A stretch of 43,545 nucleotides of DNA from an uncultured Actinomycetes bacterium (GTDB lineage: Bacteria; Actinomycetota; Acidimicrobiia; IMCC26256; PALSA-555). The position numbers and the translations under genes were made by a program. Shown piece after piece: positions 1,466 to 3,680 of the stretch. Numbering within the stretch: position 1 is the first letter of the stretch; every line of letters begins with the position of its first letter. The stretch covers positions 1 through 43,545 of the forward strand of contig CAIUKV010000185.1 in NCBI GenBank assembly GCA_903899845.1. The letters are read 5' to 3'. The notes under the pieces were generated by a model. That model did no database searches. It saw only the letters and a list, made by a program, of their open reading frames with translations, and was not told where the DNA came from.

Positions 1466-3064
1466 ATGCAGTACGTCGCCGAGCGCTTCAGCGCCGAGGA
1501 AGCCGACGTCCTGCGCCCGTACTTCACCAACCTCGACGGTCCGGTCTTCGCGCTCGTCAACCTCCCCGAGGTGGTCAAGGGCGCGCTCTTCGCCCGCTAC
1601 TCGCGCAGCTCGAAGAGCCTCCGCCGGCTCTTCCTCGACGAGTTCGTCGGGGACCTCGACCTGACCGGCGACCTCGGCGTCGACGCCAGCATCGGCCTGG
1701 CCCGGGCCGAGCAGCTGTACGAGAAGGTGTTCCTCGAGTACGGCGACGACTCGGTCGCCCAGCTCGGGGGCGTGCACCTCGCCTGCGAGCAGGCGTCCAA
1801 CGTCTTGACCAAGATCCTCGAGTGGGGCCGACTGATGGCCTACCTCGAGCAGTCCACCCGCTACATCCCCTACGACACCCGCCTCGGCGGCCGGTACCGC
1901 TTCTACCGTCCGAGCGAGGTGCTCGACTCGCCGCTCGGGGCCCGCTACGTGGCCGACATGGACGCCGGCTTCGACGACTACGCCGTCTGCCTGCAGGGCC
2001 TGCTCGAGTGGGCCCGCGACGCGTTCCCGAAGGCACCCGGCGACTCCGACTTCGTGCACAAGACCGCCCTGAAGGCCAAGGCCTGCGACGCGGCCCGGGG
2101 GATCCTCCCCGCCGCGACCCTGTCGAACGTCGGCATCTACGGCACCGGCCAGGCGTTCGAAGCGCTCCTCCTGCGCATGCGGGCCCACCCGCTCCCCGAG
2201 GCGCGCCGGTACGCGGCGATGATGCTCGAGGAGCTGCGCAAGGTCATCCCGTCGTTCCTCACCCGGGTCGACCGGCCCGATCGGGGCGTCGCCTGGAGCG
2301 AGTACCTCGCCGAGACCCGGACCGACACCGCCGCGCTCGTCGCCCGCCTGTTCCCGAGCGACCCGCCCGACGCGCGGCCGACGGTCGTCCTCAGCGACTT
2401 CGACCCCGACGGCGAGGACAAGGTGCTCGCCGCCGTGTGCTACCCGCACACCGCGCTGCCCGAGGACCGGATCCTCGACCGCGTCCGCCGGCTCGGGACC
2501 GACGACCGCATCGCGCTGATGCGGGCCTACGTGGGGGAGCGCGAGAACCGCCGGCACCGACCGGGCCGGGCGTTCGAGCGCACCGACTACCGCTTCGACG
2601 TGCTCGCCGACTACGGCGCGTTCCGCGACCTGCAGCGCCACCGGATGCTGACGATCGAGTGGCAGCGGCTCTCGCCCCGGCACGGGTACGACGTGCCCCC
2701 CGAGATCACTGCCGCCGGCCTCGACGACACCTTCGTCGAGGCGCTGGAGCGCTCGGGCGCCCTCCACGACACCTTGGCGCTCGACTTCCCCGAGCAGGCC
2801 CCCTACGCGGTGGCGCTCGCCTACCGGGTGCGGTTCGTGATGCAGATGAACGCCCGGGAGGCCATGCACGTCATCGAGCTGCGCACCGCCCCCCAGGGCC
2901 ATCCGACCTACCGCGCCGTCTGCCAGGAGATGCACCGGCTGATCGCCGAGCAGGCCGGGCACCCCGCCATCGCCGCGGCGATGACCCACGTCGACCACGG
3001 GGCCTACGCCCTCGAGCGCCTCGACGCCGAGCGGGCCGCCGAGGCCCGGCGGGCGTCCTCGTGA
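1466..3064 (+). CDS. Tandem ThyX-domain protein (FAD-dependent thymidylate synthase family)
   Basis: 532 residues, about twice the length of a normal ThyX (~220-250). Two ThyX-like domains are visible. Around residues 119-135 is EWGRLMAYLEQSTRYIPYD, which keeps the ExSTRY end of the ThyX signature RHRxxSxNExSxR but has lost the RHR. Around 391-405 is RHRMLTIEWQRLSPRH, which keeps RHR but not the second half. ThyX makes dTMP from dUMP using FAD and methylene-tetrahydrofolate, with active sites formed between subunits, so a pseudo-dimer sharing one composite site is possible (inference). Whether it still makes dTMP cannot be told from sequence. A -10-like TACGAT lies at 1411-1416, giving a leader of ~40 nt. 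The gene stands alone between short intergenic gaps. Confidence 0.75.
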   Translation: MQYVAERFSAEEADVLRPYFTNLDGPVFALVNLPEVVKGALFARYSRSSKSLRRLFLDEFVGDLDLTGDLGVDASIGLARAEQLYEKVFLEYGDDSVAQLGGVHLACEQASNVLTKILEWGRLMAYLEQSTRYIPYDTRLGGRYRFYRPSEVLDSPLGARYVADMDAGFDDYAVCLQGLLEWARDAFPKAPGDSDFVHKTALKAKACDAARGILPAATLSNVGIYGTGQAFEALLLRMRAHPLPEARRYAAMMLEELRKVIPSFLTRVDRPDRGVAWSEYLAETRTDTAALVARLFPSDPPDARPTVVLSDFDPDGEDKVLAAVCYPHTALPEDRILDRVRRLGTDDRIALMRAYVGERENRRHRPGRAFERTDYRFDVLADYGAFRDLQRHRMLTIEWQRLSPRHGYDVPPEITAAGLDDTFVEALERSGALHDTLALDFPEQAPYAVALAYRVRFVMQMNAREAMHVIELRTAPQGHPTYRAVCQEMHRLIAEQAGHPAIAAAMTHVDHGAYALERLDAERAAEARRASS

Positions 3065-3185: not shown

Positions 3186-3680
3186 ATGAGCGAGGACGAG
3201 TTCGACGACGTCGGCGACGAGGAGCTCGAGGACCTCGAGGGCGACCTCGACCCCGAGATCGACGGTGAGATCGACGACGAGCTCGACGACGACATCGACA
3301 TCGATCTGGACGAGGACCTCGTCGACGTCGAAGTCGATCCCGACGCCGACAGCATCGCCACCCCCACGCCGGCCAGCACCGCGCCGACCGACGAGGACGA
3401 CGAGGAGGGCGACGTCCTCGACCTCGACGAGGAGCTCCACCCCGACGACGTCGAAGCCCCCCTCGACGCGCTGCTCCAGGAGCGGACGGCGAAGGCCACG
3501 CTCGAGGACGAGGAGGAGGAGGTCGAGGACGAGGAGGGCGACGCCGACGAACGGGGCGAGGGCCCGACGCGCATCGTGCCCCGGCGCCCGGGCGAGTTCC
3601 TGTGCTCGTCGTGCTTCCTGGTCCTGCCCCGCCACCAGCTCGCCGACGAGGCCCGCAACCTCTGCCGCGACTGCGCCTGA
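3186..3680 (+). CDS. DUF4193 acidic protein with C-terminal zinc ribbon
   Basis: 164 residues. The first ~130 are extremely acidic, with many runs of Asp and Glu, and are probably disordered. The end carries the conserved DUF4193 zinc-binding block, LCSSCFLVLPRHQLADEA followed by LCRDCA, i.e. two CxxC pairs. DUF4193 proteins occur in most actinobacteria (Rv2699c in M. tuberculosis) and have no established function. The acidic region is longer than in typical ~100-residue members. Its reverse strand gives a long Ser/Arg ORF that is only a shadow of the GAC/GAG codons. Confidence 0.85.
   Translation: MSEDEFDDVGDEELEDLEGDLDPEIDGEIDDELDDDIDIDLDEDLVDVEVDPDADSIATPTPASTAPTDEDDEEGDVLDLDEELHPDDVEAPLDALLQERTAKATLEDEEEEVEDEEGDADERGEGPTRIVPRRPGEFLCSSCFLVLPRHQLADEARNLCRDCA

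Follow-up and report, generated by a model that had tools for sequence, protein, structure and literature searches.

The stretch of DNA analysed here (the window) comprises 43,545 nucleotides of contig CAIUKV010000185.1 (assembly GCA_903899845.1), from an uncultured actinobacterium of the class Acidimicrobiia, and it carries an open reading frame (ORF) at 1466-3064 that encodes a 532-residue tandem ThyX protein (P0001). This gene and all window features given below lie on the forward strand. The protein consists of an N-terminal half, D1 (approximately residues 1-295; 1466-2350), and a C-terminal half, D2 (approximately residues 300-505; 2363-2980), as delimited by HHalign and by the strands of a structural model. 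An orthologue of 98% identity (L033) backs the ORF. Pfam Thy1 (PF02511) matches the protein in two stretches with 129.7 bits, against a gathering cut-off of 24.8, which places it in the ThyX superfamily. HHalign aligned each half with canonical ThyX over nearly the full length (99.3% probability, E 2.4e-19 for D1; 99.35%, E 5.5e-20 for D2), and the D1 and D2 profiles gave no direct alignment to each other. Because searches of PDB sequences, with either the single protein or a 78-sequence profile as the query, returned no ThyX match, the protein was linked to ThyX through Pfam, HHalign, and fold comparison. AlphaFold2, given an alignment that included viral relatives, modeled the single chain with a predicted local distance difference test score (pLDDT) of 90.2 and a predicted template modeling score (pTM) of 0.87; with close relatives alone, residues 93-129 were poorly modeled, and the viral relatives fixed this region. 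Both halves share one order of ThyX strands and helices, with strands at residues 102-111, 125-128, and 218-227 in D1 and at 374-382, 396-399, and 453-462 in D2. All of the top 50 PDB matches in a Foldseek comparison belong to ThyX or to PolB, a ThyX-like methylase. HHalign, AlphaFold2, and Foldseek agree in finding a ThyX fold in both halves.

A first-pass annotation of this locus had proposed that each domain keeps a different half of the ThyX signature, and the translation, HHalign, and 140 of 140 tandem homologues bear this out. Residues 119-133 of D1 (1820-1864) read EWGRLMAYLEQSTRY, where the canonical counterpart reads RHR-IAS-YNELSGRY. The E-x-S-T-R-Y half is kept as E128, S130, R132, and Y133, equivalent to E86, S88, R90, and Y91 in the numbering of Thermotoga maritima ThyX; WGR follows E119 in place of RHR, so that R78 and H79 are replaced. 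D2 reads D388-L-Q-R391-H392-R393, with the RHR at 2636-2644, and continues with MLTIEWQRLSPR, in which the E-x-S-x-R element is gone. HHalign placed the WGR of D1 on R78-H79-R80, the LEQSTRY of D1 on NExSxRY, and residues 391-393 of D2 on R78-80. The contiguous motif RHR-x-x-S-x-N/E-E/Q-x-S-x-R-Y, which is intact in the 38 canonical ThyX sequences compared, occurs within neither domain and is instead split between them.

Further ligand positions are distributed over the two halves. S46 of D1 (1601-1603) corresponds to S30, and R211 of D1 (2096-2098) to R147, where D2 has P446; on the basis of ThyX annotation we take R211 to contact dUMP (deoxyuridine monophosphate) and to belong with the C set defined below. 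S96 of D1 (1751-1753) corresponds to T55, the Ser71 of Mycobacterium tuberculosis (role from PMC6514825), and R473 of D2 (2882-2884) to R174, which serves in activation of N3 of dUMP (PMC8316439). N462-A463-R464 of D2 (2849-2857) corresponds to N163-A-R165 and varies in phage and Bacillota forms. At residues 364-368 of D2 (2555-2569), HRPGR is about two residues longer than the canonical segment by eye, and under this uncertain alignment H364 may be a replacement for H53. The third Arg of RHR persists in D1 as R122 in most Actinomycetota and is lost in several phage forms.

In the canonical ThyX homotetramer, each chain serves four identical sites in three roles. The active site sits between three chains, of which subunit A supplies the RHR motif and Arg199 (R174), subunit B supplies Ser71 (T55) and Arg190 (R165), and subunit C supplies Ser105, Arg107, and Tyr108 (S88, R90, and Y91) together with a backbone contact from Gln103 (E86) (PMC6514825); Ser88 and the R174 equivalent come from different monomers (PMC3498832). 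D2 keeps the A set exactly and has lost the C set, and D1 keeps the C set and has lost R78 and H79 of the A set. The residues that contact flavin adenine dinucleotide (FAD) and dUMP in one site are all found when D1 and D2 are taken together, with H53 and R165 ambiguous. Because the retained residues split along the chain boundaries of canonical ThyX (PMC6514825), a composite site is favored, and the two halves together probably make up one working site, as judged from the residues that would line the pocket.

This division holds across the homologues, which we gathered from whole genomes, GTDB contigs, plasmids, phages, and viral contigs. A split signature was defined as ExSxRY without RHR in the first half and RHR (RH-N-R in Bacillota) without ExSxR in the second. 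Of 143 distinct sequences matched along the length of the tandem profile, 140 have the split signature, far more than chance would give; of the remaining three, one is a fragment and two are canonical ThyX proteins with a single domain. The split-signature set reaches down to ∼22% identity and spans Actinomycetota, plasmids of Bacillota, and jumbo phages. Alignments of 85, 78, and 55 sequences show no variation at the motif residues. In the last of these (55 tandem proteins, 24-98% identity), S46, S96, E128, S130, R132, Y133, and R211 are invariant in D1 (S30, T55, E86, S88, R90, Y91, and R147) and R391, H392, R393, and R473 are invariant in D2 (R78, H79, R80, and R174). Each of these 11 ligand positions is invariant exactly once, and none (0/11) is invariant in both halves. 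Were 11 of the 22 positions retained at random, p would be 0.003 for full complementarity and 1e-5 for complementarity by role; these values are rough, as the positions are not independent. The Bacillota plasmid and viral forms (L183-L185, L210-L213) have a one-residue insertion in the D2 flavin motif (RHNRK for RHR), and their D1 keeps the equivalents of H53, T55 (as Ser), E58, and R165.

We next consider how thymidylate is supplied in genomes with this gene. The host genome, a 284-contig draft of 99.6% completeness, contains no ThyA, no second ThyX, no FolA-family dihydrofolate reductase, and no thymidine kinase; a separate canonical synthase, which the first-pass annotation had named as part of the evidence that would speak against a composite site, was sought and not detected. 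Of 58 genomes in the same order, 52 match ThyX, including 26 of 26 of good quality, and nearly all of these do so twice, as a tandem should. ThyA and FolA each occur in 1 of the 58, both on one contig. Thymidine salvage was rejected as an alternative supply, a convincing thymidine kinase being present in only 3 of the 58 genomes, the host genome not among them. G008, a one-contig genome of the order, has neither thyA nor a single thyX. An additional single-domain ThyX of 283 residues in G034 (L004, contig C8, 1465-2316, reverse strand; diverged signature SHEIIRNYVGSDRNEEGSPSQESTRF) looked like a second enzyme and was set aside, since its contig carries short phage-type genes and is probably a prophage or a phage contig in the bin.

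The class-wide pattern is consistent with these results. In the 246 genomes with a completeness of 90% or more, a ThyX match is present in 222 and missing from 24 (20 of these were listed and the other 4 deduced from their absence from the list), and 22 of the 24 have ThyA. Only 3 of the 222 ThyX genomes carry a strong ThyA match, and 5 more a weak partial one. This mutual replacement of ThyA and ThyX has a Fisher p of 5e-26 to 1e-22, a value that treats genomes of shared ancestry as more independent than they are, but the swap occurs in several families (f24, f26, f31, and f36). In eight ∼1-Mb genomes of one genus, the tandem protein is absent and a canonical single ThyX is present. The distribution is that of canonical ThyX, in genomes without thyA and often without folA. 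Because two different known synthases, ThyA and canonical ThyX, take the place of the tandem protein, we conclude that it probably does the job of a thymidylate synthase, for which this twofold replacement is strong evidence by distribution. The single ThyX of the eight small genomes (L116-L123; G061, G066, G071, G076, G079, G082, G085, and G088) is closest to PDB 2cfa and 4fzb, the latter of which we take to be the PBCV-1 virus enzyme; this suggests replacement by a virus-type gene.

Taken together, these findings lead us to propose, with a probability of roughly 85%, that the tandem protein is a functional flavin-dependent thymidylate synthase made of two fused, subfunctionalized ThyX domains and that it would be the only de novo route to deoxythymidine monophosphate (dTMP) in this cell. 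The fused pseudo-dimer with a composite site, which had been suggested from the first look at the locus, gains support from the split by chain role and from the gene being the sole thymidylate synthase gene detected in the genome. D2 would have specialized in the flavin role, with RHR for the FAD phosphates and the first Arg and R174 for flavin and dUMP, and D1 in that of nucleotide binding and the lid (E86, S88, R90, Y91, and R147), with S30 and T55 retained. A pair of fused chains would assemble into a ThyX-like pseudo-tetramer, in which two of the four sites would be complete composites and the other two dead. In such an assembly, D2 would grip FAD by its RHR and polarize dUMP through R473, and D1 of the same or the partner chain would bind dUMP by E128, S130, R132, and R211, with Y133 closing the site. 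The subsequent chemistry would be that of canonical ThyX (PMC8316439, PMC11940539), dependent on methylene-tetrahydrofolate, NADPH, and FAD. The fused chains probably pair as a homodimer, which would have two composite sites where a homotetramer has four.

Several observations weigh against this proposal. The protein scores 55 bits against the NCBIfam thyX equivalog TIGR02170, below the cut-off of 87.9. R165, which belongs to chain B, is kept by D2 of Actinomycetota but by D1 of the Bacillota forms; as far as the residues tell, the role of the third chain therefore has no clean assignment to one half. H53, the folate-stacking residue, is D94 in the D1 of most Actinomycetota. Because D1 in most Actinomycetota also retains R122 (R80) and R237 (possibly R174), its flavin role does not appear to be wholly erased. 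With respect to distribution, G024, G126, and G271 carry both ThyA and the tandem protein, and G222 and G240 have neither, which may reflect incompleteness. The thyA of G024 (contig C39, 7.2 kb; L113-L115) lies in two pieces ∼1 kb apart, followed by folA; insertion, intron, and contamination are possible explanations. Five genomes with the tandem gene (G100, G192, G243, G272, and G275) give weak partial matches of 51-92 bits to the thymidylate synthase profile PF00303, perhaps to hydroxymethylase-like relatives.

It is conceivable that one half alone is catalytic, for instance D2 with residues recruited from elsewhere, and that the other is a structural or regulatory remnant. D1 has no flavin motif and looks degenerate in isolation, and D2 has the higher Pfam score (71.3 versus 57.1 bits). 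A remnant would not, however, keep the equivalents of S88, R90, Y91, E86, and R147 invariant at all levels of divergence, as D1 does, and D2 has lost all five of these residues, two of which (S88 and Y91) are crucial to the canonical enzyme (PMC11940539). We therefore regard a single catalytic half as very unlikely.

Little more than one chance in twenty is left, in our estimate, for the second alternative, raised by the first-pass annotation, in which both domains have changed function and the protein is a PolB-like or modified-base enzyme that methylates or hydroxymethylates some other pyrimidine. Neither half has the contiguous ThyX motif, the TIGR02170 cut-off is not reached, and PolB is among the fold matches. 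PolB, the uridine/deoxyuridine monophosphate (UMP/dUMP) methylase of Streptomyces cacaoi (PDB 4P5A/4P5B), is likewise a pyrimidine methylase of the ThyX fold; unlike the tandem protein, it is a single-domain chain of 239 residues. PolB belongs to nucleoside-antibiotic synthesis, and we know of no case in which it replaces ThyA. A change of function is hard to reconcile with a host genome that has no other thymidylate synthase or thymidine kinase, with sister genomes in which ThyA or canonical ThyX substitutes for the tandem protein, and with the retention, once each, of 11 canonical ligand residues that match the chain roles. Least probable of all is that the tandem protein is an accessory paralogue of a true synthase in an unassembled or undetected part of the genome, which the draft state of the assembly and the few relatives with both genes would allow, since thyA and folA are absent from the same 57 of 58 genomes of the order and the controls behaved as they should, ThyA is found mostly in genomes without the tandem gene, and the same absence is seen in the one-contig genome. 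A fused enzyme with a composite site remains the reading that we prefer.

The tandem protein can be compared with several known systems. It shares the ThyX fold, in both halves, with the canonical enzymes of T. maritima (TM0449, PDB 1O26/1O27) and M. tuberculosis (PDB 2AF6/3GWC), and as with canonical ThyX, the fused chain has those FAD- and dUMP-contacting residues that were tested, and its genome lacks thyA and folA. Unlike the canonical chain of ∼220-250 residues, it has ∼530 residues in two diverged domains, with RHR and ExSxRY apart, and is predicted to form two sites where canonical ThyX has four per four domains. Thermus thermophilus Thy1 (PDB 6J61), a ThyX with extra C-terminal sequence that is among the fold matches, is too short, at 270 residues, for a second ThyX domain, and its motif RHRTASVNEISGRY is intact. 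In 2009, Valas and Bourne (PMC3224940) noted a ThyX with a duplicated domain in Chloroflexi and in a small number of other species and called it uncharacterised; it probably has the same architecture as the tandem protein. The passages on Chloroflexi ThyX in that paper mention no split signature, composite site, or members from Acidimicrobiia or phages, and in the portions of the open-licence literature available to us we found no description of a split signature or composite site in duplicated ThyX. RefSeq names such tandem proteins FAD-dependent thymidylate synthase.

In a maximum-likelihood tree of the halves, all D1 sequences form one group (98/99) and all D2 sequences another (100/99), with a weak root and long branches. 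The grouping is consistent with a single duplication and fusion and with later complementary losses, all before the actinobacterial, Bacillota, and phage forms split. Distant relatives have neighbors in nucleotide metabolism: in phage Tunturi_5, the tandem gene adjoins genes for dUTPase and dCMP deaminase, and on a Euzebya plasmid it lies a few genes after dCTP deaminase. We lean, with some reserve, toward a single ancient fusion that turned a four-site homotetramer into an obligate two-site enzyme before Actinomycetota and phages diverged; this enzyme would now be the sole thymidylate source in a large bacterial class as well as a ThyA replacement borne by phages and plasmids.

A few observations on related records and on the neighborhood of the gene may be added. 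In Parabacteroides distasonis (NZ_OY725790.1; L216:16378-21664), genes for the tandem ThyX, an AAA ATPase weakly similar to IetA, a HIT protein, and a MazG-like pyrophosphohydrolase form a block directly upstream of folA, and in this one record the tandem protein perhaps stands in place of thyA. Several public metagenome-assembled genome records titled Bifidobacterium breve (L040, L052, L068, and L083) carry an Acidimicrobiia-type tandem ThyX, and their titles look wrong. The next gene downstream in the window (3186-3680, forward strand) encodes an acidic protein with a DUF4193 C-terminus (39 bits).

If our proposal is correct, the tandem protein would be a clear example from nature of an essential enzyme, found in both cellular and viral settings, whose inter-subunit active site has been shared out between fused paralogous domains, and it would offer a testable model for the loss of symmetry in oligomers with shared sites. 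Separate mutation of the two halves, which a homotetramer does not permit, would allow the part played by each chain in the debated ThyX mechanism to be dissected. The finding also serves as a warning that motif and equivalog searches can miss the sole thymidylate synthase of whole bacterial classes.
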